From an uncultured Phycisphaeraceae bacterium (GTDB lineage Bacteria; Planctomycetota; Phycisphaerae; Phycisphaerales; UBA1924), in assembly GCA_937899905.1 (NCBI GenBank), contig CALCCF010000089.1:1-64000 (forward strand): a DNA stretch of 64,000 nucleotides. Direction: 5' to 3'. Numbering within the stretch: position 1 is the first letter of the stretch; every line of letters begins with the position of its first letter. The notes under the pieces are model-generated. The model was not told the DNA's origin. It made no database searches and saw only the letters and a program-made list of their open reading frames with translations. A program made the position numbers and the translations under genes. Positions 31,201-53,611 of the stretch are shown piece by piece.

Positions 31201-31437
31201 AAGGGCTTCCGAGCCGACAAGGCGCGGGCGCTCAGGGCCTACATGGAAACCAACAGCTTCTTGCCGGAATCCGCACCCGTGGACCGTGCCGAGGCGATCT
31301 CGATCGCCCTGAGAGGCCCCGGCCTGGGTAGTACTGCCCAGGATCAAGGAGCGGTCACGCTCGCCAATCGGCTCTTGGACCTTTTTGAGGCATCCCAACG
31401 CCGCGAACGTGAAGCGCAGGCCGTTTCGGAGGCGTAA
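28264..31437 (+). CDS. SbcC/YhaN-like ATPase with membrane hairpin and C-terminal extension
   Basis: The 1057-residue protein has a Walker A motif at 32-39 (GRNESGKS), long coiled-coil arms (about 130-350 and 400-700), an ABC signature-like LSTGTRAQIMLALRLA at about 725-740 and Walker B with LVLDEPLATTD at about 757-767. A hydrophobic hairpin at about 355-398 lies at the far end of the arms, as in YhaN, and differs from the zinc hook of classic SbcC/Rad50. After the ATPase head an extra domain of about 210 residues follows, containing GITTVGQVLA and PGVGDLA, which resembles helix-hairpin-helix or RNA polymerase alpha-CTD-like folds. The start is ATG 28264-28266, overlapping the upstream stop. 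Confidence 0.85.
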   Translation: MRIRSIKIQRSPGISSEFEIDGFGEGLTLISGRNESGKSTLAMAIRTLLWPDRHDDLEASGRFAIDDREFNAFVGLRGGDWQGSAPPMPDRSAARGLVIGIGDLWHEDDHHESIRQSMARELQGGYDLAALQRTLEPKSPTAPMRDLAGARDALESARANASALHAQEARLPALRERVAALGKQANEKPQIEAAISRLDRLASLAADEQQLAQLPEGALKLNGDEGRHAASFQRAIDDSAASVEKEADAADAAQVSLDALRLPDGGIEPGDLELLASLSQDAESLRQQIAQARQHSDGAAAAAEAVASNGTPMDAAALDRLDHALLNVQHARERMSRDVAAAEHTDQPRSAGGRTLASALLVGTLAAAIASGIAGAWLALAASAITCVLAAIAARHLLSNASAPDPRLREQAERSSRAHEESLADLRSIDGMDSELTSTLSIVVAAKRAERADDALRQLHAARAAEESLEDQLCRTIERAAAPLARCGLEPCDNADGLIRALANAKARAAEHDRLVRERDAAELRAADERRRLAQTRQDYERFLSRLGLTEDRLDELRVWLQHRERAQGLSKQIHESRAVLSSIDGTLEATPRLLGLDLAALRLELQECERSDAERSDIDQEIGKIEGAVRESKQQADVQAAVGAVEAAAQAVAQARDHECAKAARRLTLEHAASGLQRNDMPALVREADAMLARFTAGAYGLRIDGSGQPVLYDSREGVAKTSEQLSTGTRAQIMLALRLAGTREAERRAGSGPLPLVLDEPLATTDRGRFKAVAGALLELVREGRQVLYLTCEPAHVATLESAAAESGVPVVALDLNAIRGRQGMERTPRHAIMEPKPEPSPATMAREDYLRARGVAPLDPWAPAEAIDVYHLIADDLGLVHELGQHGITTVGQVLAQHERQGSDFRWPGVGDLASMATRLLETWRRGRSRPFTARDLDASGVAGAYFDRLAGLIEDLGGSARSLIEAVESRSDERAKGFRADKARALRAYMETNSFLPESAPVDRAEAISIALRGPGLGSTAQDQGAVTLANRLLDLFEASQRREREAQAVSEA

Positions 31438-31633
31438 CCGATACGTCTGCCGCATCTGGGGCCCCTGGCCGCTGGCCCGAGTCACCCCTCGTGGTAGCCT
31501 GCACTCATTCACTCTGGACGCGACCACGACGCGCGTCCGGGCCGCTCGATATCGGACGCTGTCGTGTTGGGAGGCGGATCGCATCCGCCGGCGACTCGGC
31601 GTCGAAAGGCCGGGACCAGGGAGGTTCGAACAC

Positions 31634-34471
31634 ATGCATTCAAAGATGGCACTGATCTTGGCCTGCGGTATGGCCTTTGGGTTGGGTACGCCCGTGGCGA
31701 TGGCCGATTCGGCCTCGAGAGACGCGAGCGTTTCGGTGATGGCCCAAGACGGCCAGGACTCGGTTCTGACGTTCCGCGGCCAGGTCTTCCATGAGGCCGC
31801 CGGCCAGGTCTTCGACCTGGAGCAGGCCCAGACCCCCGGCGGCGAGGCCATCCTCATCGCGTGGCGCGAGGCCACCGATCAGGGCGAGGTCGCGTACTCG
31901 GCCATCTCGCTGACCGGCCAGCGCATCGATCGAGTCTCGACCACCGGACACACGATCCGGTTGCGCTACGCCGAGTTCGATCCCGATCGGTTCACGCCGG
32001 CTGTCCCCGGCCAGCTTTCCGCGACGCCGGACAACGACGCGTACATCGTGCAGTTCATCGGCCAGCCCGTTGAGGCCGCCGACTTGGCCCTTGAGGCCGC
32101 GGGCGCGACCATCCTCCGCACGCTGCACGATCACGCCCGCATCGTGCGGATGGATCCGGCTGCCAAGGCCGAGGTCGAGGCGATGGGCATCGTGCGCTGG
32201 GTCGGCTCGTACCACCCGGCCTACAAGCTCGAGGAAGAGATCCTGCAGCCGATCATGCTCGGTGGCACGTTCGCTGGCGGCGGCTCGGTCCGCTACTCGA
32301 TCGAGCTGCTAACCGACGGCAACGCGGCCATGGACCGCGCAACCGCCATCACACGCGCCCTCGGTGGCGCCATCGACCTCACCGTGCCGCAGGTCGGCCG
32401 CTTCGAGGCGACGCTCACCACGGCCCAGCTGCTGCAGCTCGCCTCCGACAGCGATGTTCTGTTTATCGATCGCTGGCAGGCCCCCGAAACGGACATGAAC
32501 ATCGCCCGCGCGATCGGCGGCGCGAACTACATCGAGGGCGTCGCGGGCTACGACGGCGCGGGTGTCCGCGGCGAGGTCATGGACAGCGGCCTGCGCACCA
32601 ACCACCAGGAGTTTGCATCCAACCCGCCCCTGCTGCACGGTGGTACGGGTGTCGATAGCCATGGCACCGCAACCTACAGCATCAACTTCGCAAGCGGCGT
32701 CAGTGGCTCAGCACGCGGCATGGTCCCCGAAGCTCAGGGCATCTTCGCCAGCTACTTCAGTGTTGGTAACCGGTATTCCCACACGCTGCAGCTCGTCAAC
32801 CCAACGCTGCCATACCGGGCGGTCTATCAGTCCAACAGCTGGGGTAGCGGACTCACCACGAGCTACACGACCTCGTCCAGCGAGATGGATCGCATCATCT
32901 TCGACTCGAATCTGCTCATCACGCAGAGCCAGTCGAACCAGGGCAGCACGCAGTCTCGTCCCCAAGCTTGGGCGAAGAACATCGTCTCGGTGGGCGGCAT
33001 CGTGCACCGCAACACGCTGAGCAAGGCCGATGACTGCTGGTGCAACGGCGCTAGCCGGGGGCCGGCCTCGGACGGTCGCATTAAGCCAGACCTCACGCAC
33101 TTCTACGACAGCACTTTTGCGGCGACCTCTAGTTCGACGAGTGCCTACACGCAGTTTGGCGGCACGAGCGGCGCCACGCCCATCGTCGCCGGCCACTTCG
33201 GCCTGTTCTACCAGATGTGGGCCGACGGCATCTTCGGAAACCCCGTCTCTGGCGGCGATGTCTTCGAGGAGCGCTCGGCATTCACCACCGCCAAGGCGAT
33301 GATGATCGCGACGGCCGACCCGTACAACTTCAGCGGGACCAGCACGGCCAACGACAAGGCCCGTGTGAAGCAGGGCTGGGGCATGCCTGACCTACAGGAG
33401 ATGTACGATAACCGCGAGCAGTTCTTCGTCGTCGATGAAGAGGACATCCTTTCGGAGCTCGACACCGCGCTCTACCAGCTCAAGGTGCCCGCGGACACGC
33501 CCCAGCTCCGGGCCACGATGACCTGGTCGGACCTCAACGGCACGACCTCGGGCTCGCAGCACCGCATCAATAACCTCGACCTCCGCATCACCTCGCCCAG
33601 CGGCGACGTGTACTGGGGCAACTCGGGCTTGAACGGCGGCATCTGGAGCACGGCCGGTGGCGTTGCCGACACCATCAACACCGTCGAGAACGTCTTCATC
33701 CAGGACCCTGCCGAGGGCGTCTGGACCGTCGAGGTGATTGCCGCCGACGTCAATGTCGATGGTCACCGCGAGACCCCGGCCCGTGATGTCGACTTCGCGC
33801 TTGTTGTCATGGGCGTCGAGGGCGAGGCCGCAGCGTTCGAGCTACCCTTCGCAGACGAGTTCCCCGATGACTCTCTGGACACCAGCAAGTGGATCGGCGC
33901 TGACAACGTCGCCGTGACCACGCTTGGTGTCAACCCGCCCAGCGAGCCGTACAGCCTGCTGATGATCGACGATGGTCTGCTGGCGTCGGCGACCATCAAC
34001 GTGCCCGGAACGCTACTGCCGGACACGCCTGTCGAGGTCGCCTTCGCGAGCCAGCACCGCGGCGTCGAGGCCGGCAAGACGCTCGACGTGGATTACTTCA
34101 GCACGTTCTTCGGCGAGTGGCGTGACCTGACCGAGGTCGTGTCCGATGGAGACAACCAGACGACCTTTGCGGCCAGCGCGACCGAACTGCCGCTCGACGC
34201 CTACGGCGACGGCTTCCGCATCCGCTTCACGACGCCAGGCGGCGACGTAACCGACCAGTGGTACATCGATGACATCGGCGTTCGCGTGATCGCCGACGAT
34301 CCGACGTGCCGGGCCGACCTCGACGGCGATGGCGAGTTGACGATCTTCGACTTCCTCGAGTTCCAGAACCTGTTCTCCACCGGCGACCTTCGCGCGGACT
34401 TCGACGGCGACGGTGTGCTGAACATCTTCGACTTCCTGGAGTTCCAGAACGAGTTCGCGACCGGCTGCTAA
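31634..34471 (+). CDS. Exported subtilisin-family (S8) protease with GC-type dockerin repeats (2)
   Basis: The 945-residue protein has a signal peptide (cleavage near VAMADSAS), a propeptide-like region of about 270 residues, and an S8 protease domain with D317 (VMDSGLRTNHQEF), H343 (DSHGTATYS) and S512 (GGTSGATPIVAGHF). A jelly-roll-like P-domain region and an acidic beta domain follow, then two dockerin repeats (DLDGDGELTIFDFLEFQN and DFDGDGVLNIFDFLEFQN) and a terminal TGC. The protease is probably displayed at the cell surface or in the periplasm. GGGAGG precedes the ATG. A terminator follows at 34496. Confidence 0.92.
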   Translation: MHSKMALILACGMAFGLGTPVAMADSASRDASVSVMAQDGQDSVLTFRGQVFHEAAGQVFDLEQAQTPGGEAILIAWREATDQGEVAYSAISLTGQRIDRVSTTGHTIRLRYAEFDPDRFTPAVPGQLSATPDNDAYIVQFIGQPVEAADLALEAAGATILRTLHDHARIVRMDPAAKAEVEAMGIVRWVGSYHPAYKLEEEILQPIMLGGTFAGGGSVRYSIELLTDGNAAMDRATAITRALGGAIDLTVPQVGRFEATLTTAQLLQLASDSDVLFIDRWQAPETDMNIARAIGGANYIEGVAGYDGAGVRGEVMDSGLRTNHQEFASNPPLLHGGTGVDSHGTATYSINFASGVSGSARGMVPEAQGIFASYFSVGNRYSHTLQLVNPTLPYRAVYQSNSWGSGLTTSYTTSSSEMDRIIFDSNLLITQSQSNQGSTQSRPQAWAKNIVSVGGIVHRNTLSKADDCWCNGASRGPASDGRIKPDLTHFYDSTFAATSSSTSAYTQFGGTSGATPIVAGHFGLFYQMWADGIFGNPVSGGDVFEERSAFTTAKAMMIATADPYNFSGTSTANDKARVKQGWGMPDLQEMYDNREQFFVVDEEDILSELDTALYQLKVPADTPQLRATMTWSDLNGTTSGSQHRINNLDLRITSPSGDVYWGNSGLNGGIWSTAGGVADTINTVENVFIQDPAEGVWTVEVIAADVNVDGHRETPARDVDFALVVMGVEGEAAAFELPFADEFPDDSLDTSKWIGADNVAVTTLGVNPPSEPYSLLMIDDGLLASATINVPGTLLPDTPVEVAFASQHRGVEAGKTLDVDYFSTFFGEWRDLTEVVSDGDNQTTFAASATELPLDAYGDGFRIRFTTPGGDVTDQWYIDDIGVRVIADDPTCRADLDGDGELTIFDFLEFQNLFSTGDLRADFDGDGVLNIFDFLEFQNEFATGC

Positions 34472-35218: not shown

Positions 35219-35980
35219 ATGCACGCACGACGCGGCGCGTCCGTACGCGCCTTCACGCTCATCGAGCTACTCGTTGTCATCGCCATCGTCACCGTGCTCA
35301 TCGGCATCCTGCTCCCGGCGCTCGGCCGTGCGCAAGATGTCGCTCGCAGCGCGGCATGCCTCAGCTCCATGCGTTCGCTGGCCCAGGCCACGCACCTCTA
35401 CGCGCAGGACTACGCGGGGCGGATGCCGGCGAGCACGCACTCGGCCTTCGCCGATCGTCGCCAACCGTGGGCATTCGCATTGGCTCCGTACCTGGGGGAC
35501 GACGGCCTCAAGGGCCAGAGCGACGCGGCGAGATGGCGGAACTACATGGAGCGCTCCTGCCGCTGCGGATTCGATCCTCGGCGGGGCGAGACTCCGCAAG
35601 GCGAGCGCGACGGCTATCTGCTCTTTAACGGCAGCTACGGCCTGAACGTCTACTTCGAGCTCACGAGGGGGGAGGTCGGGAGCACCGGACCCGCACCCGT
35701 GCGTGCAATCGGTCTGCTGCCCAACCCATCGAAGACGGTGCTGTTCGGTGAGGTCGGTCCGGGCTCAGAGGGAGAGCCGGCCGGCCTCGCCGACCACGCC
35801 GATCACGTGATGGCCCACTTCTGGACCCTGTACTCCGCGCCCTCCGAGGTCGCGACCACGCGGCACGGCTCGACCTGCGGCTACGCGTTCGCAGATGGCC
35901 ACGCCGCCGACCTGCCATTCCAAGACACGTTCGATCCCGATCGCGGAATCGACCTGTGGAACCCACACACCGCACACTAA
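35219..35980 (+). CDS. Prepilin-type protein with H-X9-DG motif
   Basis: The 253-residue protein has a prepilin leader (RAFTLIELLVVIAIVTVLIG) and a DUF1559-like body. Near the C terminus His is followed by nine residues and Asp-Gly (RHGSTCGYAFADGH), the H-X9-DG pattern known from many planctomycete prepilin-like proteins. Such proteins are probably exported and processed by prepilin peptidase; their individual roles are unknown. GGGAGG precedes the ATG at 35219. A dockerin protein gene starts 36 bases after its stop codon, suggesting co-expression. Confidence 0.85.
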   Translation: MHARRGASVRAFTLIELLVVIAIVTVLIGILLPALGRAQDVARSAACLSSMRSLAQATHLYAQDYAGRMPASTHSAFADRRQPWAFALAPYLGDDGLKGQSDAARWRNYMERSCRCGFDPRRGETPQGERDGYLLFNGSYGLNVYFELTRGEVGSTGPAPVRAIGLLPNPSKTVLFGEVGPGSEGEPAGLADHADHVMAHFWTLYSAPSEVATTRHGSTCGYAFADGHAADLPFQDTFDPDRGIDLWNPHTAH

Positions 35981-36015
35981 CACAACTCGACGCGATGCGT
36001 CAGGAGAGGATTACC

Positions 36016-36708
36016 ATGAAGACTCACACCACCACCGTGCTCGCCGTCCTCGCCACCGCGGGCAGCGCCTTGGCTCAGGCACCCCAGATGGGCGGTCCGA
36101 TGCGGCACGTCATGCTCGGCCTTGATGGCGATCGCGTGATGGCCATGAACCCGCACAACGAAGCCATGGAGCTGCGCAACTACGGCGAGACCTACCCGGG
36201 CGCTGCCAGCGTGCTCGACGGCACGGCGTACAACGCGCAGTACGGGTGGATGGCCATGGGCGGGCTGAGCCTGCCCGCCGGAGCTTCGATCTGGATCGAG
36301 CTCGAAAGCGCGACCGACGGGCTCATGGTCTATCGGGGCGGCACGTTCGAGCCGATCCACGGCACCGATGACAGCGCGATGGCGTTCATGTGGGACGGCC
36401 GGATGCTGCACAATTGGTGGGCCGTGACCGAGGTTGGCAGCTACGAGGCCGACATCGTCATCTACTTGGGCGACGCCGCGGGCACGCCGATCTCGGGCTA
36501 CCAGGCCGGCCGCACGACGCTGCGTTGGATCTACCGCCCCACGTGCGTTGCCGACTTCAACGACGACGGCGCGGTCAACGTCTTCGACTTCCTTGCGTTC
36601 CAGAACGCCTTCGACGGCGGCGACGCGATCGCCGACCTCGATGCGGATGGCGATCTCACCCTGTTCGACTTCCTGGCCTTCCAGACCGCGTTCGACGGCG
36701 GGTGCTGA
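36016..36708 (+). CDS. Exported GC-type dockerin-domain protein (3)
   Basis: The 230-residue protein has a signal peptide (AGSALAQAPQ) and an unrecognised beta-rich domain of about 150 residues with many Met and Trp (HVMLGLDGDRVMAM, HNWWAV). Two dockerin-like repeats (DFNDDGAVNVFDFLAFQNAF and DLDADGDLTLFDFLAFQTAF) and the final GGC follow. AGGAGAGGA precedes the ATG at 36016. It is the last gene of a unit with the H-X9-DG prepilin. Confidence 0.82.
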   Translation: MKTHTTTVLAVLATAGSALAQAPQMGGPMRHVMLGLDGDRVMAMNPHNEAMELRNYGETYPGAASVLDGTAYNAQYGWMAMGGLSLPAGASIWIELESATDGLMVYRGGTFEPIHGTDDSAMAFMWDGRMLHNWWAVTEVGSYEADIVIYLGDAAGTPISGYQAGRTTLRWIYRPTCVADFNDDGAVNVFDFLAFQNAFDGGDAIADLDADGDLTLFDFLAFQTAFDGGC

Positions 36709-36721
36709 GTGCCTCCGAATA

Positions 36722-36737
36722 CCTGGGCTTGCCCAGG
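36722..36737 (+). terminator. Hairpin after the third dockerin gene
   Basis: CCTGGGC and GCCCAGG form a short stem 13 bases after the stop codon. The T tract is minimal (GTTTG). It may end the transcript before the LysW leader region. Confidence 0.5.
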
Positions 36738-36753
36738 AGTTTGACTCAACCGC

Positions 36754-36781
36754 TTGACTCCCACGAACCGATAGCCATCAT
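36754..36781 (+). promoter_or_regulatory. Candidate promoter of the LysW leader/operon
   Basis: TTGACT at 36754-36759 (five of six to the -35 consensus) is followed after 16 bases by CATCAT at 36776-36781 (four of six to -10). The start would fall at or near the ATG at 36789, so the leader peptide would be read from a leaderless or nearly leaderless mRNA. A second TTGACT lies at 36741-36746. Confidence 0.45.
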
Positions 36782-36788
36782 TGAACTG

Positions 36789-36884
36789 ATGACGACGTGC
36801 GCTCACATCGCGACCTCCCGCAACGGGAAAGCCAAAGCCAAGGGAAGCAAACCCTCCGGCTGCGGTCGCGTGCGCGTCCGTTAG
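36789..36884 (+). CDS. Candidate Lys/Arg-rich leader peptide of the LysW operon
   Basis: This 31-codon ORF begins with ATG and ends with TAG. It carries Lys at 14, 16, 18 and 21 (GKAKAKGSK) and Arg at 11, 27, 29 and 31 (GRVRVR), about a quarter of all residues. It ends 22 bases before a perfect terminator hairpin and lies upstream of lysW. Codons 22-24 contain CTCCGGC (36854-36860), which can pair with GCCGGAG in the left arm of that hairpin (36914-36920). This fits a ribosome-read attenuator sensing Lys and/or Arg charging. No ribosome site is seen. It could still be a chance ORF. Confidence 0.45.
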   Translation: MTTCAHIATSRNGKAKAKGSKPSGCGRVRVR

Positions 36885-36906
36885 AGTTCCTTGCATAGAC
36901 ATCCGC

Positions 36907-36942
36907 AAGGCCCGCCGGAGACCATCTCCGGCGGGCCTTTTT
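36907..36942 (+). terminator. Perfect terminator hairpin upstream of lysW (candidate attenuator)
   Basis: A 14-bp perfect stem (36907-36920 and 36926-36939) with a 5-base loop is followed by a five-T tract at 36938-36942. It lies 45 bases before the lysW start. The stretch in between holds a ribosome site but no convincing promoter, so transcription of the operon would have to pass this terminator. An alternative pairing of its left arm with the upstream ORF is possible. Confidence 0.85.
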
Positions 36943-36987
36943 CGTTGTTTTTCCAGATGTTTTTCCCAGTTTCCCAGGAGAATCGCC

Positions 36988-37191
36988 ATGTCCCAGATCG
37001 CGACCGGCACCACGACAGAGACCCTGACGGCCACCTGCCCCGAGTGCGGCGGCACCATCACGTTCGCCCGAGCTCCCAGGCGGCATGAGATCGTCCGCTG
37101 CCCAGACTGCGGAGCTGAGTTGGAAGTCACCAGCGTGTCCCCCATCACCCTCGCGCTTGCGCCCGAGGTCGAAGAGGACTGGGGCGAATGA
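36988..37191 (+). CDS. lysW: Amino-group carrier protein LysW
   Basis: The 67-residue protein has a zinc-ribbon-like fold with CPEC at 17-20 and CPDC at 38-41 and the diagnostic C-terminal EDWGE. In the LysW pathway the C-terminal Glu of this protein is joined to the amino group of 2-aminoadipate (or glutamate), and all later intermediates stay bound to it. AGGAG precedes the ATG. It opens the lysW-X-Y-Z-K operon and has a terminator just upstream of it. Confidence 0.95.
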   Translation: MSQIATGTTTETLTATCPECGGTITFARAPRRHEIVRCPDCGAELEVTSVSPITLALAPEVEEDWGE

Positions 37192-37233
37192 AGGCCTGGC
37201 GGGGACCGATCGCACGACACGAGGAGGCAGACC

Positions 37234-38109
37234 ATGCGACTAACGCTGCTGCACACACGGATCCGAACCGAGGAGCGTCTGCTGCTCGACGAGCTCGAAC
37301 GTCGCGGCATCGCTGCCGAGCTCGTCCACGCCGATGAGGCCGTGCTCGATCTGACCGAGTCGTTCGACGCTCGAAACGAACCACACGTGCTGCTCGATCG
37401 CTGTCTGAGCCACACGAAGGCGCTCGCGATCGTGCGAGCCTTCGAGAGCCGTGGCGCGATCTGCATGAATCCATCAAAGGTCACACGCACGTGTGGCGAT
37501 AAGCTGCTCACGACGCTCGCCCTGACCGACGCCGATGTACCCACGCCCCGGACCGTCGCGGCGTTTTCGGCCGATGGCGCAATCCAAGCCGCAGATGAAC
37601 TCGGCTACCCGGTGGTCATCAAGCCGTGCACGGGTTCATGGGGGCGCATGGTCGGCCGTCTGAGTGATCGCGACGCCCTGGAGGCCGTGCTCGAGCACAA
37701 GCTCGCGCTCGGTGGACCGCAGCACGGCGTGATCTACCTCCAGGAGATGATCAACAAGCGCGAACGAGACATCAGGGCGTTTGTCGTGGGTGGGCGCACC
37801 ATCGCGGCCATCGTGCGGCACAGCGAGCATTGGATCACCAACACCGCGCGAGGCGGGCGGGCGGAGGGGCTGCCCGTCTCGGCGGAACTGGACGACATCT
37901 GCCGCCGCGCATCGAACGCGGTGGGCGGCGGCGAGCACAGCCTGCTGGCGGTCGATCTGTTCGAGGACCCCGATCGCGGGCTTCTTGTATGCGAGGTGAA
38001 CTCGACGATGGAATTCCGCAACTCCATCGAAACCACAGGCGTGGACATCCCCGCACGCATCGTCGATCACCTGGTGGAAGCGGCGAACGCCTCGGCGGTG
38101 GTCGCATGA
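37234..38109 (+). CDS. lysX: LysX-type ATP-grasp ligase ([LysW]-aminoadipate or -glutamate ligase)
   Basis: The 291-residue RimK-like ATP-grasp enzyme has a pre-ATP-grasp domain, then VVIKPCTGSWGRMVGRL (ATP-binding region), LQEMINKRERDIRAFVVGG, and the metal-binding end CEVNSTMEFRNSIETTGVDI. It couples the substrate amino group to the C-terminal Glu of LysW. Substrate choice between aminoadipate (lysine) and glutamate (arginine) cannot be fixed here by eye. GAGGAGG precedes the ATG at 37234; the stop overlaps the next start (ATGA). Confidence 0.92.
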   Translation: MRLTLLHTRIRTEERLLLDELERRGIAAELVHADEAVLDLTESFDARNEPHVLLDRCLSHTKALAIVRAFESRGAICMNPSKVTRTCGDKLLTTLALTDADVPTPRTVAAFSADGAIQAADELGYPVVIKPCTGSWGRMVGRLSDRDALEAVLEHKLALGGPQHGVIYLQEMINKRERDIRAFVVGGRTIAAIVRHSEHWITNTARGGRAEGLPVSAELDDICRRASNAVGGGEHSLLAVDLFEDPDRGLLVCEVNSTMEFRNSIETTGVDIPARIVDHLVEAANASAVVA

Positions 38110-39134
38110 GCGTCCGGGTGGGCATCATCGGAGGCGCGGGGTACACGGGCGGGGAGCTCCTTCGCCTGCTCTCGATGCACCCGCACGCCAAAGTCGCCTG
38201 GGCGACCTCGCGCGGCCGGGCGGGCTGGCATGTCTCGACCATCCACCCAAACCTGCGCGGCGTGCTCGACCTGGCGTTCATCGACCCCGGTGAGGTCGAC
38301 CCCGTCGACGTCGTATTCCTGTGCCTGCCACACGGCGAAACGGCGGGGAACATCGAGCGATACGCCGACCTTGCCCACAGGGTGATCGATCTGAGCAGCG
38401 ACTTCCGGCTGCGTGATCCCGACGACTACGAGCAAACCTATGGCCAGCCGCACGCGGCGCCGCAATGGCTCGATCGCTTCGTCTACGGGCTGCCGGAGGC
38501 CCATCGAGACGATCTCGCGGACGCTCGTTACATCAGCGGCGTGGGCTGCAACGCGACGGCGATGAACCTGGCGCTTCTGCCCCTCGCGCGGGCGGGCGCC
38601 ATCGAGCGAGTGATCGCCGACGTGAAGGTCGGCTCCAGTGAGTCCGGTGCCGAGGCCAGCAGCGCAAGCAACCACGCCGAGCGGACCAACGCCCTGCGAA
38701 CATTCGCGCCAACGGGCCACCGACACGCCGCCGAAGTAAGGCAGCTCTGCGGTGACTTTCCGCTGCACGTCACGGCGACGACGACCGACCTCGTTCGCGG
38801 GGTTCTCGCGACATGCCACGTGCTGATCAACGAGGAACTGACCGATCGCGACGTCTGGCAGATGTTTCGGAGCGCCTACGCCGACGAGCCGTTCGTGCGC
38901 ATCGTGCGCGAGCGGCGCGGGCTGTACCGGCTGCCCGAGCCGAAGGTCTTGGCGGGGACGAACTACGCCGATGTGGGTTTCGCGGTCGAAACCGGCGCGA
39001 GGCGGGTGGTGGCGCTCTGCGCGATCGACAACCTCGGCAAGGGCGCGGCTGGGAGCGCCGTGCAGAGCATGAACGTGGCCTGCGGCTTCGAGGAATCGGT
39101 GGGATTGACGTTCCCGGGTCTGCACCCGGTCTAG
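38106..39134 (+). CDS. lysY: LysY-type [LysW]-acyl phosphate reductase (N-acetyl-glutamyl-phosphate reductase family)
   Basis: The 342-residue enzyme has an N-terminal nucleotide-binding motif GGAGYTGGELLRLL, the catalytic Cys in SGVGCNATAMNL, and DNLGKGAAGSAVQ near the end, as in ArgC/LysY. It reduces the acyl phosphate made by the kinase to a semialdehyde with NADPH while the substrate is held on LysW. It starts within the lysX stop codon (ATGA overlap) and ends 12 bases before the kinase gene. Confidence 0.93.
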   Translation: MSVRVGIIGGAGYTGGELLRLLSMHPHAKVAWATSRGRAGWHVSTIHPNLRGVLDLAFIDPGEVDPVDVVFLCLPHGETAGNIERYADLAHRVIDLSSDFRLRDPDDYEQTYGQPHAAPQWLDRFVYGLPEAHRDDLADARYISGVGCNATAMNLALLPLARAGAIERVIADVKVGSSESGAEASSASNHAERTNALRTFAPTGHRHAAEVRQLCGDFPLHVTATTTDLVRGVLATCHVLINEELTDRDVWQMFRSAYADEPFVRIVRERRGLYRLPEPKVLAGTNYADVGFAVETGARRVVALCAIDNLGKGAAGSAVQSMNVACGFEESVGLTFPGLHPV

Positions 39135-39146
39135 GAGGAGTGCGCG

Positions 39147-39947
39147 ATGATTGTGGTGAAGATCGGCGGTGCCGAAGGCATCGGCCCCGAACAAGCCTGC
39201 GACGATGTCGCCGAGCTCGTACGCAGCGGCGAGCACGTCGTGGTCGTGCATGGCGGCTCGCACGAGACGAACACGCTGAGTGAGCGGCTGGGTGTTCAGC
39301 CGCGGTTCATCACGAGCCCAAGCGGCCACACGAGCCGGTACACGGACGAGCAGGCCATCGACATCTTCCAGATGGCGTGCGGGAGGCTCAACGCACGCAT
39401 CGTTCGTCTGCTGCGCGAACGCGTCGTCGACGCCGTCGGCTTGAGCGGCATGGACGGCGGACTATGGACGGCCAAGCGCAAGGCCGCAATCCGAGCGGTC
39501 GAGGATGGCGTCACGACGATCATCCGCGACGACCACAGCGGCACGATAGAGAGCGTTGATGCACGCATGATCGAAGCGCTCATCAATGCCGGGCGGACCC
39601 CGGTGCTCTGTCCCCCTGCCATCGGGCGAGACTACGAGCCGATCAACGTCGACGCCGACCGGGCCGCCGCGCAGACCGCCGGCGCGATCGATGCGGATAC
39701 CCTCGTAATCCTCTCGAACGTGCCGGGTCTGCTGCGATCGTTCCCGGATGAGTCCTCACTGATTCCGAGCCTCGCCCGAGCCGAACTGGACTCGGCCATC
39801 GAAGTCGCCCAGGGCCGCATGAAGCGAAAGGTTCTTGCGGCGGGCGAGGCGCTCGATGCCGGTGTGGGTCGTGTCATCCTGGCCGACGCCCGGCGTGAGC
39901 ACCCGATACGCCACGCGCTCGAAGGACAGGGCACGGTGCTGTCATGA
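39147..39947 (+). CDS. lysZ: LysZ-type [LysW]-aminoadipate/glutamate kinase
   Basis: The 266-residue amino-acid kinase of the NAGK family has the Gly-rich loop VVKIGGAEG, VVHGGSHETN, LSGMDGGLW and the ATP-site segment AEALINAG-like to VNVDADRAAAQTAGAI-like region, with KRKVLAAGEALDAGV at the end. It phosphorylates the side-chain carboxylate of the LysW-bound substrate. AGGAGGAG precedes the ATG at 39147. The stop codon overlaps the start of the hydrolase gene (ATGA). Confidence 0.92.
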   Translation: MIVVKIGGAEGIGPEQACDDVAELVRSGEHVVVVHGGSHETNTLSERLGVQPRFITSPSGHTSRYTDEQAIDIFQMACGRLNARIVRLLRERVVDAVGLSGMDGGLWTAKRKAAIRAVEDGVTTIIRDDHSGTIESVDARMIEALINAGRTPVLCPPAIGRDYEPINVDADRAAAQTAGAIDADTLVILSNVPGLLRSFPDESSLIPSLARAELDSAIEVAQGRMKRKVLAAGEALDAGVGRVILADARREHPIRHALEGQGTVLS

Positions 39948-41059
39948 CCATCGCCGACCACGACGCCATTGCGGTGCTCGGCGACCTGGTCTCGACGCCC
40001 AGCGTGTCTGGTGCCGAGCATGAGGCCGTTCTCTTGCTCGTCCAGCGGATGGAAGCACTCGGCTATCGAACGCGCATCGACGAGGCCGGCAACGCCGTGG
40101 GCACGATCGGCAGCGATGAGCCGGATGCCGCCGAGATCATGCTGCTGGGCCACATCGACACCGTGCCCGGGCATATCCCCGTGCGCATCGAGGATGGCGC
40201 GCTGTGGGGCCGCGGCTCGGTCGATGCCAAGGGCCCGCTGTGCGCATTCACCGTCGCCGCAGCTTCGGCCGAGTTGCCCAAGCACACTCGGCTCGTCGTC
40301 ATCGGAGCCGTTGGCGAGGAGACGCCGACCTCACCAGGCGCCTCACTCGTGAGCGATCAATACAGACCGAACGCGTGCCTCATCGGTGAACCCAGCGGCT
40401 GGCAGCGTTTCGCCATCGGATACAAGGGACGCCTGCTCGTGCACGCCCGATTCACCCAGGACTGCGGGCACACCGCTGGGCCCATAGGCTCGGTGGCGGA
40501 ACGCGGCTTGGCGTGGCACCGCAGCCTGACCGCGAACCTGCAGGAATGGAACCTCGGTCACGACGGACAATTCGACACCATCCAGCCCAACCTGCAACGC
40601 TTCAACACGACCAGCGACGGCCTCCAAGACTCCGCGATGCTCACCGTTGGGCTCCGGCTCCCGACATGGATCGACCCGCGCGACCTCGAACGCGACATAC
40701 GTAGCATCTCGCGCGATGGCGAGCTCAAGTTCGAGGGCCACAGCCCAGCGCACCGCGGTTCGCGATCGAGCGAGCCCGCAAACGCGCTCTCGCACGCGAT
40801 CGGCGTGCTCGATGGCCGCCCTACCCCCACCGTCAAGACTGGGACGAGCGATATGAACACCGTCGCGCACGCGTTCGACTGCCCGATCGTGGCCTACGGC
40901 CCGGGCGACAGCACGCTCGACCACACGCCGCACGAGCGGCTTGATCTCTCGGAGTACCTTCGCAGCATCGAGGTCCTGCGCACCGCGATTCCGATGCTCG
41001 CGAACGACCTTAGTGGTCGGCCGGAGTTGAGCGCGACTGCACCATCAGTCGTTTCATAG
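39944..41059 (+). CDS. lysK: LysK-type [LysW]-lysine/ornithine hydrolase (M20 peptidase)
   Basis: The 371-residue M20-family metallopeptidase has ligands H70 ([10 protein letters not shown]), D94 ([11 protein letters not shown]), the catalytic E125 and ligand E126 ([10 protein letters not shown]), another acidic ligand in LIGEPSG and a C-terminal His (LDHTPHERL). In this pathway it releases lysine or ornithine from LysW, the last step. It overlaps lysZ at the start and its last 50 bases overlap the convergent pdxJ. The aminotransferase step (LysJ) has no gene in this cluster. Confidence 0.9.
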
Positions 41060-41771
41060 AGGCCACCGCCTCTCGGAAACCCGTGTAGATCGATCGGCTG
41101 ACGATCGCGTGGCCGATGTGCAGTTCTTCGACCGCAGGCAGAGCCGCGATCGGCCCGACGTTGTGGTAGTTCAGCGCGTGCCCCGCGTTGAAGCGCATCC
41201 CGCGTGACACGATCTCGCGCCCGGCATTGGCAACCGACTCCAGCGACGCCGCAAGCTCTGGCCGACGAAAGTCACCGCCGCACTCGCTCCATGCGTGCGC
41301 GTACGGGCCCGTGTGCACCTCGCAGACGTCAAACCCCGCGTGGTGCGCCGCCTCGACCTGCGACGCATCGGGATCGATGAACGCGCTCACGATCAAGCCG
41401 GCGTCCCGTAGCCGATCTACCACGCCCCTCATGGCGTCGAGCCGACCGGCGATGTCCAGCCCACCCTCGGTGGTAATCTCTTGGCGGCCCTCGGGGACGA
41501 GCATAGCCGTGTGCGGCTTGAGCTCCGCCGCGAAGCCGATCATCTCGTCGGTCGCGGCCATCTCGAGATTCAGCCGGACGTTGATCGTGTCGCGCAGCCG
41601 GCGAAGGTCGTGGTCCTGCACGTGCCTGCGGTCCTCGCGCAGGTGTGCGGTGATGCCGTCGGCCCCGCCGAGTTCGGCCTCGTGCGCCGCCCGCACCGGA
41701 TCGGGCTCGGCACCCCGGCGAGCCTGGCGGACCGTGGCGACGTGGTCGATGTTGACACCAAGTTGGATCAT
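41010..41771 (-). CDS. pdxJ: Pyridoxine 5'-phosphate synthase PdxJ
   Basis: The 253-residue TIM barrel matches PdxJ: LGVNIDHVATVRQARRG at the N terminus, GADGITAHLREDRRHVQD, MLVPEGRQEITTEGGLD, and the C-terminal AGHALNYHNVGPIA and ELHIGHAIVSRSI. It makes pyridoxine 5'-phosphate from 3-hydroxy-1-aminoacetone phosphate and deoxyxylulose phosphate, which links it to the DXP supply also used by IspG/Dxr. TACCGT lies 5 bases before the ATG, with no ribosome site. The 3' end overlaps lysK by 50 bases. Confidence 0.95.
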   Translation of the reverse strand: MIQLGVNIDHVATVRQARRGAEPDPVRAAHEAELGGADGITAHLREDRRHVQDHDLRRLRDTINVRLNLEMAATDEMIGFAAELKPHTAMLVPEGRQEITTEGGLDIAGRLDAMRGVVDRLRDAGLIVSAFIDPDASQVEAAHHAGFDVCEVHTGPYAHAWSECGGDFRRPELAASLESVANAGREIVSRGMRFNAGHALNYHNVGPIAALPAVEELHIGHAIVSRSIYTGFREAVASMKRLMVQSRSTPADH

Positions 41772-42754: not shown

Positions 42755-44020
42755 TCAGGCCGAACTCGTCGCCCTATTCATGCCGATCAGGTCCTCGTTC
42801 GTCTCGAATCGCTTGAGGGCGCCCAGCAATTGCTCGATCTGCTGCGGCGGCGGCATCGAGAGCAAGCGGCGGCGCAGCGCGTTCACGGTCTCGAGCTCCT
42901 GCTTGGGCATGAGCAGGTCTTCCTTGCGCGTACCGCTGGCCGCGAGGTTCATCGCCGGGAAGAGCCGCCGCTCGGCGACCTTGCGGTCGAGGATGAGCTC
43001 CATGTTGCCGCTGCCCTTGAATTCTTCGAAGATCACCTGATCGCCCTGGCCGCCCGTATCGATGAGCGCCGTCGCGATGATGGTGAGCGAGCCAGCTTCC
43101 TCGGTCTGCCGGGCCGCGCCGAAGAGCTGACGTGGGACCTCGAGCGCCTTGCTGTCGATGCCGCCGCTCAGCGTGCGACCGCTGCTCGAGTACTCACGCG
43201 AACGATTGAACGCACGCCCGAGCCGTGTCAACGAGTCGAGGATGATGACCACGTCCTTGCCCAACTCGACGAGGCGCTTGCACCGCTCCATGGTCACTGT
43301 CGCGACCTGGATGTGACGCTCGGCCTCGTGATCGGCGCTTGAGGCGACAACCGTGACCCGATCCGAATCCCACGGGCGATCGGGATCATCGGGCCCATGA
43401 CCGGTCAGCGAGCGTCGGAAATCCGTCACCTCTTCGGGCCGCTCGTCGACAAGCAGCACGAACAATTCGGTGTGGTCATGGTTCCGCAAGATAGCGGTGG
43501 CGATGTCCTTCAGCAGCGTGGTCTTGCCGGCCTTGGGCGGGCTCACCACCATGGCGCGCTGGCCAAAGCCGATCGGGCAGAACAGATCGACCAACCGGCA
43601 CGACGCAGCGCAGCCGGGATACTCGAGCGTCATCCGCGGGCTCGGATCGACTGTCGTTAACTCGTCAAAGGGTGTGGGCTCCGGCGCGTCGTCCGCGGCG
43701 ATTCCCTCAATGGTGAGTAGACGCTCGGCGACGGGAGCCTTGACCGAGTTCCCACCCTGGCGTCCGGACTGCCGTCCTCGGCGCCCTCGCCCGTTGCGGC
43801 TGTTTCGGCCCTTGCCGTTCTGCTGCACGCCCGCGACCTTGCTCCCGAGCTCGACTTCGACGCTCGTGCCGGGCAACAGCGCAAATCGATCCACGATCGA
43901 TCGTGGGAGGATCGGGTCGTCTTCGCGGAACTGCACGGTGTCGCCCACGATCGGGCGTAACCGGACGTCACCGCGCCGCGGTTGATCAACCAGGCCGGAA
44001 AAGGTCGTCATGTTGTCCAT
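42755..44020 (-). CDS. rho: Transcription termination factor Rho, short N-terminal form
   Basis: The 421-residue RNA helicase has the complete motor domain: Walker A PPKAGKTTLL at 161-170, LVDERPEEVTDFRRS, VIILDSLTRLGRAFNR, and RKVAERRLFPAMN. The N-terminal part is unusual. The helical Rho_N domain is missing, and the cold-shock RNA-binding domain (about 17-108) is interrupted by an Arg/Gly/Asn-rich insertion at about 65-92 (GRNSRNGRGRRGRQSG). Longer upstream readings would add only low-complexity sequence. ATGs at 44018 and 44009 are both possible starts. The ptsI gene is divergent. Confidence 0.93.
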   Translation of the reverse strand: MDNMTTFSGLVDQPRRGDVRLRPIVGDTVQFREDDPILPRSIVDRFALLPGTSVEVELGSKVAGVQQNGKGRNSRNGRGRRGRQSGRQGGNSVKAPVAERLLTIEGIAADDAPEPTPFDELTTVDPSPRMTLEYPGCAASCRLVDLFCPIGFGQRAMVVSPPKAGKTTLLKDIATAILRNHDHTELFVLLVDERPEEVTDFRRSLTGHGPDDPDRPWDSDRVTVVASSADHEAERHIQVATVTMERCKRLVELGKDVVIILDSLTRLGRAFNRSREYSSSGRTLSGGIDSKALEVPRQLFGAARQTEEAGSLTIIATALIDTGGQGDQVIFEEFKGSGNMELILDRKVAERRLFPAMNLAASGTRKEDLLMPKQELETVNALRRRLLSMPPPQQIEQLLGALKRFETNEDLIGMNRATSSA

Positions 44021-44360
44021 TCGTCCGCAAGACCAACGCGACGCCGGACCAGACGAGGCCCAGCCGCATCGATCGGCTTTCCAGTGGTATCGGCCCGTAT
44101 GGCTCGCGAACTTGGCGAACCGCGGGAACGAACTCGCTATCAGAGGCAGCACGCCTCGCCGTGTCAAACGCCGTCGGGCATCTGCGGGACTTTCCCCGGA
44201 TCGCCGAGCATCCTGCCAAAATCCGATACGCGTGGCATCCGGCCTTGGATTCGGCTATCCTCGGCCTCTACGACGTGCAGGGGGTTATCGGTAGCGGAGG
44301 CCGCTCCGGCCGAGCCGATCGCCCATGTCATGCTCAGACCACAGGAGCCATAGCCCCGGC
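44021..44360. other. Divergent intergenic region between rho and ptsI
   Basis: The 340 bases hold no supported gene. They should contain the promoters of both genes. A TATCCT box is seen near 44259, about 100 bases before ptsI, and AGGAG lies 13 bases before the ptsI ATG. The long leader on the rho side would fit the autogenous control known for rho in other bacteria, but I see no clear signal. Confidence 0.4.
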
Positions 44361-52073: not shown

Positions 52074-53611
52074 GAGCCTTCCACCCTCGACCGCTGCTGT
52101 TCCTCGCCCTCGTAAGCCTGGCCCTCGCGGTGGCCTCGTGCGACGACGGACAAGACCAGCCCATCGCGACGATCGACTACGCCCAGCGCCTCCACGACGA
52201 CACCCTGGCACGTCAACGCGAGGTCATGGGCGAAAACGAGAACCAGTGGCCTCGCTACGAGTCGGTCATGGCCGAGCTCGAGTCGCGCCTTGACATCGTG
52301 AAACGGGCCGATAGCAACGCATTCAGCGCAGCCGAAAAGTCCGATCCCGAAAACGTGTGGGCTGGCTTGGGACTCGCGATCTTCGGCATGGTCCCGCATC
52401 GCGGCGCGCCCGAAGACTTTGCAGCCGAGCACGCGCGAGCCGTCGCCATGTTCGAGGACCTGCGTGCCCAAGGCATCTTCGACATTACAGCCGAGCTCAG
52501 CGATCTCCTGGTGACGATGCCGCCCCCCGAAGACAGGCCGTTCGAGCTCTCGACGCAGCCGTTCAGGTCCACATCGCGACAACTCATTCGGCTGCAGAAT
52601 GCCCGCATGCATCTCGCTGGCGACGACGAGGCCCAGCTGCTCTCCGGTCTTCAAGAAGGCCTCACCGTGGGGCGCCACATCTCTTGGCACGGTTCGGTCC
52701 CCGAGTGGATGACAGGCCAGCTGCTTGTGCGAATCGCTGTGCAAGACTTCCTCCGAGCCCTACTCCGCCAGCCAACGCTCAGCGACGACACCCTCGCTCG
52801 GGCCGACGCGCTCATCGTGTTGGAAGGCCAGACGCGTACCGCCGGCATCGAGCACGTGATCCATGCCATCGACCTGACGACCAAAGACCTGATCCAGCGC
52901 ACGTACTCGGCACGCGGCGATCTCCACATCGAGTCGCACGAGCGGTACTTTCCACCGGGGTTCTTCGACACCCCGCCGCCCGAAGAGCCCATCGACAACG
53001 ACGACATGTTTGCGATCTTTGGATCGATGTACTTCCCCTCGCCAGAAGAGCCCTACGACAGCCGGAAAGACGTCACCGTTTGGTTCGAGACGCTGCAAGC
53101 GATGATCCTCGAGGCCGCTAGGGCCAAGGGCATCGACGTCCTTCCCGCCTACGACGAAACCGCGGCGTTCGCGCAGACGGCCACACCACACGCGCCGCTG
53201 GCCGCAGGCCTGGCGCCACCACCGCGGCTCATCTTCTTCCAACGCGGCCTGGACCTCGAACTCACGGGCACCCGTGTCGTCCTCTCCATCGAACGCTTCC
53301 GCCTACGCAACGGAGGCACGCTTCCGGCAAGCTTGGATGACCTTGGATCACTGCTGCCCGTCGACACGCGTACCGATCCACTCACGGGCACGCCTTGGGT
53401 CTACGAGCCCACACCGATCGAGGCCGATCGCAACGGCGACCCGCTGTTGGAGGGCGCCCTCGCGTGGCCCTACACGGTGCGCAGCGCAGCCTTGCCCGGA
53501 GCGGAGCCAAATGCGCGATGGCAGAGTAACCCAAAGGGCGGGATGCTCATCACCGCGCCGATCCAAGGGCCAAAGTACGACGAGATCGAGCAAGACTCGG
53601 GCAACGGCTGA
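52067..53611 (+). CDS. Tandem paralogue 2: lipoprotein of unknown function
   Basis: The 514-residue relative of the genes on both sides has a lipoprotein signal with lipobox VASC in place of the membrane anchor. It shares the start of the mature domain (TIDYAQRLHDDTLARQRE), the C-terminal module (IERFRLRNGGTLPASLDDLG, RTDPLTGTPWVYEP, WPYTVRS) and the closing LITAPIQGP. The three paralogues therefore differ mainly in how they are anchored and in the middle helical domain. It ends 12 bases before paralogue 3. Confidence 0.75.
   Translation: MVRAFHPRPLLFLALVSLALAVASCDDGQDQPIATIDYAQRLHDDTLARQREVMGENENQWPRYESVMAELESRLDIVKRADSNAFSAAEKSDPENVWAGLGLAIFGMVPHRGAPEDFAAEHARAVAMFEDLRAQGIFDITAELSDLLVTMPPPEDRPFELSTQPFRSTSRQLIRLQNARMHLAGDDEAQLLSGLQEGLTVGRHISWHGSVPEWMTGQLLVRIAVQDFLRALLRQPTLSDDTLARADALIVLEGQTRTAGIEHVIHAIDLTTKDLIQRTYSARGDLHIESHERYFPPGFFDTPPPEEPIDNDDMFAIFGSMYFPSPEEPYDSRKDVTVWFETLQAMILEAARAKGIDVLPAYDETAAFAQTATPHAPLAAGLAPPPRLIFFQRGLDLELTGTRVVLSIERFRLRNGGTLPASLDDLGSLLPVDTRTDPLTGTPWVYEPTPIEADRNGDPLLEGALAWPYTVRSAALPGAEPNARWQSNPKGGMLITAPIQGPKYDEIEQDSGNG

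Follow-up and report, generated by a model that had tools for sequence, protein, structure and literature searches.

A probable lysine-sensing transcription attenuator conserved upstream of the LysW operon in Phycisphaerales and part of the Chloroflexota

What controls the genes of the amino-group carrier protein (LysW) pathway in bacteria far from the usual laboratory models? Bacterial lysine genes are best known under L-box or T-box control, and we know of little experimental data on regulation for the order Phycisphaerales of the Planctomycetota or for the part of the Chloroflexota considered here. The question is raised by a 64-kb stretch of DNA (hereafter the window), contig C89 of a Phycisphaerales genome (G000) of 3.63 Mb in 113 contigs. 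In it a promoter-like site, a 31-codon ORF rich in Lys and Arg codons and a strong terminator precede, in this order, the genes lysW-X-Y-Z-K. From sequence comparison and modelled RNA folds we consider it highly probable that this leader controls lysW-X-Y-Z-K by ribosome-mediated transcription attenuation in response to charged tRNA-Lys, so that lysine shortage would very probably switch the operon on.

All the genes of the operon are on the forward strand. The first one, lysW (36988–37191), codes for the amino-group carrier protein with the C-terminus EDWGE and has an AGGAG at 36976–36980. It is followed by lysX (37234–38109), with the Asn-Thr signature WITNTARGG, lysY/argC (about 38106–39134, its start set at an ATG near the family match), lysZ (39147–39947), coding for the [LysW]-aminoadipate kinase, and lysK (39944–41059), coding for the [LysW]-lysine hydrolase. 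On the opposite strand pdxJ (41010–41771) faces lysK, the last ca. 50 nt of which it overlaps. Farther downstream, also on the reverse strand, there is a gene for a Rho-like termination factor (42755–44167) with a long N-terminal part that has no match; the protein scores 374 bits with TIGR00767 (below the cut-off of 509) and 378 bits with PRK09376 (above the cut-off of 315). Two forward-strand genes located 5' of the operon (31385–34471 and 35956–36708) code for GC-type dockerin proteins, one of them with a subtilase domain.

The leader is preceded by a sigma-70-like promoter (36754–36781, +), formed by a TTGACT at 36754–36759 and a CATCAT at 36776–36781 with a spacer of 16 nt. Only 7 nt downstream of the -10 is the ATG of the 31-codon ORF (36789–36884, +; MTTCAHIATSRNGKAKAKGSKPSGCGRVRVR), which has four Lys and four Arg codons. 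Three of the Lys codons form the run AAA GCC AAA GCC AAG (KAKAK, 36828–36842, +). An earlier sequence-only reading of this DNA had proposed the promoter, the spacing of the ATG and the ORF, and we find all of them at these positions. It had also described a perfect 14-bp terminator 22 bases after the ORF; the terminator is there and the hairpin does start 22 nt past the stop codon, with a stem of 15 pairs instead of 14 (36907–36939, 11 G-C pairs), a loop of 3 and a T-rich tail, the whole spanning 36907–36947 (+). When both strands were scanned between 34000 and 42000 a single promoter-like site was detected (0.7 are expected from shuffles), and by the consensus used there was none between the terminator and lysW, as had been claimed. 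When the 300 nt 5' of lysW were shuffled 3000 times with their dinucleotides kept, 3 of the shuffles reached four Lys within 12 codons. Our script detected six strong terminator-like hairpins in the window, and no other than that of the leader closely follows an ORF of this Lys density. The layout 5' of lysW is beyond chance.

The RNA between the Lys codons and the terminator contains the segments expected for a switch. Segment 2 (CTCCGGC, 36854–36860, +) begins 11 nt past the third Lys codon and is the exact complement of segment 3 (GCCGGAG, 36914–36920, +), which is at the same time part of the left arm of the terminator (3:4) and the 3' half of the predicted antiterminator (2:3). A protector hairpin (1:2, 36837–36860, +) is predicted to form if segment 1 is free of the ribosome, by pairing of 36837–36839 with 36858–36860 and of 36841–36844 with 36852–36855. 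A further hairpin, CCTTGC/GCAAGG (36889–36910, +), is contained within the predicted antiterminator fold and is kept in the genus. The region 36780–36990 folds better than its shuffled versions (z -4.8, 0 of 200). Both alternative structures of the sequence-only reading are found in the models, given the ribosome edges that we assumed: a ribosome stalled at the third Lys codon, with RNA made up to segment 3, leads to the antiterminator (P(2:3)=1.00), while a ribosome at the stop or at the first Arg codon leads to the terminator (P(3:4)=1.00), and with the ribosome absent both the protector and the terminator form (P(1:2)=1.00, P(3:4)=1.00). Once the entire terminator has been transcribed it wins over the antiterminator even with the stall at the third Lys codon (P(3:4)=1.00), and therefore the switch has to act while the RNA is being made, a feature of other attenuators too. 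As modelled, this set of folds is that of a classical attenuator switch.

The predicted sequence of events is as follows. The RNA would start at, or a few bases from, the ATG of the leader ORF. When lysyl-tRNA is ample, the ribosome would clear the Lys codons, leaving segment 3 free, the terminator would form and transcription would end. When lysyl-tRNA is scarce, the ribosome would halt at the KAKAK codons covering segment 1 and exposing segment 2, and the exposed CTCCGGC would pair with GCCGGAG before segment 4 is synthesized, allowing the RNA polymerase to continue into lysW.

Five relatives of the same genus (G001 and G003–G006) have retained the TTGACT, the spacing to the ATG (looser in G004), the peptide, the terminator and the T tract. 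The TTGACT is identical in all six genomes and the -10 is more variable. The peptides follow the pattern KAKA[KQ]G..P[SP]G.GR[VA]RV[RH], with the first and second Lys invariant in the six leaders and the third in five. The fourth Lys codon (36849–36851) is kept in four of the six, being replaced by T or Q in the other two, and in the window segment 2 starts only 2 nt past it. Judging by these positions the sensor is formed by the KAKAK codons, the fourth being too close to segment 2; of the original claim that the Lys codons precede the pairing segment, it is the part concerning KAKAK that stands. One more genome placed in the genus by the classification tool (G002) has a divergent leader, RKASKATTRG, with two Lys in 12 codons, and its LysX is found elsewhere on the tree.

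Taken in the window sequence alone the 7-bp complementarity is within chance (P=0.13), and its significance comes from the comparison among relatives. A shuffle test run locus by locus was weak (P<0.05 in 9 of 57 loci; chi-square 198 with 114 df over loci that are non-independent), and we have used instead a permutation test across leaders, in which, for the 55 leaders whose terminator was clear, the ORF segment past the second Lys codon was paired with the left arm of the terminator. The duplex formed with the partner of the same locus averaged -21.0 kcal/mol against -18.07 (sd 0.42) for permuted partners, and none of 20,000 permutations was as good. With the 38 representatives less than 0.80 alike the result was similar (-20.26 versus -17.55 kcal/mol, 0 of 20,000). 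A control region 5' of the Lys codons gave no signal in either set (7857 and 5544 of 20,000, respectively). The own partner had a median rank of 16 of 55 and 13 of 38, the set having shifted as a whole. The letters of the segment vary by lineage while the complementarity is retained: the pair is GTCCGGG:CCCGGAC in several Phycisphaerales, CAGGCCCG:CGGGCCTG in L010, TCCAAGG:CCTTGGA in L015 and CGTCGTG:CACGACG in L049. The protector recurs too. Of 29 other leaders of the Phycisphaerales type (KAK[DG]), 23 have GACGC-N5-GCGTC, or a form of it with no more than one mismatch, immediately past their last Lys codon, with versions such as GACAC:GTGTC (L008) and GGCGC:GCGTC; among the six without a match, some had been anchored by the script on an earlier Lys codon. 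A ribosome on the last Lys codon would mask the 5' arm of this protector and release the 3' arm, which overlaps segment 2.

How far does the leader extend? We have gathered 100 lysW loci, of which 21 come from 61 related genomes and the other 79 from a collection scan, being among its best 80 of 369 hits ranked by similarity to the LysW of the window; removal of seven duplicates and the too short L099 left 92 distinct loci. Leaders were picked by eye within 300 nt 5' of lysW in 63 of them (in L037 the frame taken was not the best scoring one), and L056, with a leader ca. 300 nt upstream that was at first scored as absent, was added as the 64th. In this set chosen by similarity, including the best 80 of 369, the leader is thus present in 64 of 92 loci. 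It precedes all 50 distinct Planctomycetota loci of the same similarity-chosen set, all eight labelled Anaerolineae/Anaerolineales or Ardenticatenia/Ardenticatenaceae (counting L056), two of the five labelled only “Chloroflexi” (L073 and L083) and four with an odd or absent taxon label (L051, L057, L081 and L097), for which binning errors are possible. L081 corresponds to G233, which was placed in the phylum Planctomycetota in the wider draw described below. No leader was found in the remaining 28 of the 92 loci, belonging to Chloroflexia (Herpetosiphon, Chloroflexus, Oscillochloris, Chloroploca and kin), Actinomycetota (Streptomyces, Micromonospora) and Acetothermia/Bipolaricaulota; given that the leader of L056 was first missed, other absences may be missed leaders as well. 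At least three Lys within 12 codons were present in 60 of the 63 leaders (the exceptions being L012, L024 and L025), and the clustering of Lys was significant (P<0.05, 100 shuffles each) in 58 of 63 (not in L002, L024, L025, L041 and L042), compared to one (L085) of the 29 loci then scored as lacking an attenuator ORF. The script detected a hairpin with a T tail 3' of 57 of the 63 leaders, two of them weak, and no hairpin in the other six. The idea of a Lys-codon-driven attenuator ahead of the LysW operon is thus supported by the comparison of relatives that the sequence-only reading had called for, close and distant, in which a Lys-rich or K/R-rich ORF, the terminator and the pairing are conserved.

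In a wider and less similarity-biased draw of 392 Planctomycetota genomes, LysW was matched at E<=1e-9 in 25 (20 with a weaker match were put aside as unlikely LysW). The leader was located 5' of lysW in nine of nine genomes inside the order and in one of 16 outside (G233). G116 was scored as absent because its frame with three Lys ends 12 nt before lysW, which leaves no space for a terminator. In a quick-search tree built from 85 rows of LysX, the presence of the leader requires three changes versus 23.2 for shuffled labels, or two, by reasoning on the same tree, if L056 is relabelled. L057 (labelled Cyanobacteria) and L097 (labelled Halieaceae) have the leader, and their LysX are located beside those of L096 (Phycisphaerales) and L093 (Anaerolineae, long branches); both are probably mis-binned contigs.

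We have also built a covariance model on 35 leaders and scanned the 61 genomes with stricter filters. The 13 strong matches (E<=1.8e-11) were all directly 5' of lysW, one per genome, but since all of them are training sequences they provide no independent support and show only the absence of a comparable second site; no second strong site away from lysW was detected in the 61 genomes. The other matches among those listed had E values from 3.9e-4 to 0.1. Among the eight LysW-containing genomes outside the training set, two were matched at lysW, weakly (G002, E 0.002; G025, E 0.012), and these are probably real. The model gave no match at lysW in the other six (G008, G009, G012, G015, G016 and G031), indicating that it misses divergent leaders. 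As for ten loci with weaker matches to the model, seven lacked a frame with four Lys in 12 codons (one of them, L169, was inspected and has a terminator without such a frame), and the frames of this kind in L172, L173 and L176 resemble parts of longer proteins.

A -35/-10 match was found 5' of 42 of the 63 leaders, compared to 0–23% of the trials with composition-shuffled regions, and was absent before the other 21. In 28 of the 42 an in-frame ATG is located 5–12 nt past the -10. Such a distance leaves no space for a ribosome-binding site and suggests a leaderless ORF, and so we infer from the promoter spacing that the leader ORF is probably translated in this manner. A CCGAT stretch between the -35 and the -10 recurs in the leader promoters of several relatives (2 in the window versus 0.64 in shuffles). 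Elsewhere in the window, at 52290 (+), the sequence TTGACATCGTGAAACGGGCCGATAGC resembles the promoter of the lysW leader, with the stretch CCGATAGC after its -35.

The sequence-only reading had left the signal as Lys or Arg, and an attenuator responding to Arg, or to both, deserves consideration since the ORF has four Arg codons, no ArgJ was found in the genome of the window and, according to excerpts of PMC10433800, LysW pathways can yield ornithine in some archaea. However, the run of Arg codons is limited to the genus, the leaders of Chloroflexota keeping Lys with few or no Arg, and a ribosome near the first Arg codon would mask segment 2 so that, in the predicted fold, only the terminator forms. 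These two facts point to Lys as the signal, and we have rejected Arg; a response to it, alone or with Lys, seems to us very unlikely. LysX also argues against Arg. The same excerpts (PMC10433800) give Asn-Thr as the signature of SaLysX and Gly-Phe as that of SaArgX, and the Asn-Thr form, as TNTA[RL]G, was found in 88 of 94 matches including that of the window (of the rest, L098 has TNVARG and the pattern missed the other five).

The product of the operon is most likely lysine, a reading based on the LysX signature, on the distribution of LysA and on a homocitrate synthase. In 26 hand-picked genomes LysA was over the cut-off in two of the 19 with LysW (G023 and G057) versus six of the seven without it; G029 has a split match below the cut-off. 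In G012 a homocitrate synthase is encoded directly 3' of lysK (TIGR02146, 442.5 bits, cut-off 413.55). The genome of the window gave no match over the cut-off for homocitrate synthase or LysA (an arginine decarboxylase accounts for the weak match to LysA) and none for ArgJ. Its single HMGL-like protein (PF00682) is a hydroxymethylglutaryl-CoA lyase, and so LeuA is missing too, while DapA and two isocitrate-dehydrogenase-type genes are present. PF00682 matched one frame, at 79–153 bits, in 17 of the 19 genomes with LysW, the protein being identified for that of the window.

Could the ORF code instead for a functional small protein with its own terminator, lysW being transcribed from another promoter? 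Its C-terminal tail (SGDGRVRVR type) is conserved in the genus, as such a protein would require, although with few silent changes, which fits a constraint on the RNA. Past the genus and its nearest kin it is mainly the Lys cluster that survives, the promoter-like site that lysW would need after the terminator was not found, and it would give no reason for the complementarity to the terminator arm, making this reading very improbable as well. Less credible still is that the hairpin is the 3' terminator of the dockerin gene at 35956–36708 and the ORF a chance frame. In the window that gene is directly 5', and the open frame can be followed back to 36390. However, a motif search of the 900 nt 5' of the Lys codons found the dockerin repeat in the window and three of the other genus genomes and none in G003 and G005, where leader, promoter and terminator persist; the terminator is therefore not that of the dockerin gene, and the same elements accompany lysW in two phyla. 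We have rejected this candidate. A lysine riboswitch (L-box) or a T-box, both known as sensors of lysine or tRNA-Lys, was rejected as the least probable of all, neither being among the eight covariance-model matches at E<=5 in 36400–37300.

Returning to the probable attenuator sensing tRNA-Lys, its Lys codons differ from those of the genes. Over 59 loci, the Lys codons of the leaders are AAA 202 times and AAG 43 times, whereas lysX has 43 AAA and 225 AAG (Fisher p 6e-55, nominal because the loci are related), and the share of AAA is higher in the leader than in lysX in 51 of the 59. The corresponding figures for nine genes of the window are 6 AAA and 63 AAG. This preference may reflect the sensing of one tRNA-Lys isoacceptor. 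One idea about attenuators is that, among synonymous codons, they favour that whose tRNA is the first to become uncharged, and the AAA-rich leaders provide a natural test of it. A broader reading, put forward here tentatively and with some doubt, is that a single ancient lysine attenuator has been inherited with the LysW operon across at least two phyla (Phycisphaerales in the Planctomycetota; Anaerolineae/Ardenticatenia in the Chloroflexota), with a leaderless ORF in which the rarer AAA reads one tRNA-Lys isoacceptor, in hosts that mostly lack both LysA over the cut-off and a recognisable homocitrate synthase and would obtain aminoadipate from an unknown source. Attenuation by sensing of tRNA-Lys looks usual for the carrier-protein lysine pathway in this order of Planctomycetota and in part of the Chloroflexota, and the leader would tie the LysW operon to lysine, not to arginine, in hosts with an unclear aminoadipate supply.

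The closest precedent is the lysine cluster of Thermus thermophilus, which is reportedly controlled by leader-peptide transcription attenuation, likewise before lysine genes of the LysW type. This would contradict the sequence-only reading, which knew of no such control for the carrier-protein pathway. Ours are other phyla and here the leader is directly 5' of lysW-X-Y-Z-K; the likeness is one of reported arrangement. Thermus composti, included as a named control, gave a LysW match. The trp- and his-type attenuators of Proteobacteria share with these leaders an ORF with regulatory codons, the 1:2, 2:3 and 3:4 pairings and an intrinsic terminator, but here it is Lys that would be sensed, and the regulatory codons are mostly AAA, the synonym least used by lysX of the same loci. 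At the terminator region of the window the Rfam models His_leader (RF00514, 24.5 bits) and Thr_leader (RF00506, 16.9 bits) match far under their gathering thresholds of 49 and 55. As far as searches of the open-access literature show, the probable lysine attenuator is new for these bacteria, although its principle is classical and the Thermus case is said to precede it. The titles and abstract openings listed by these searches contained no description of attenuation of a LysW operon; the “lysW” of PMC545781 is an unrelated transporter name. The trpL of Sinorhizobium meliloti, according to excerpts of PMC10117765, is an attenuator ORF that is leaderless and begins with its AUG, as we propose for the LysW leader; there the amino acid is Trp and the leaderless start was shown by experiment, whereas here it would be Lys and the start is deduced from the spacing of the promoter.
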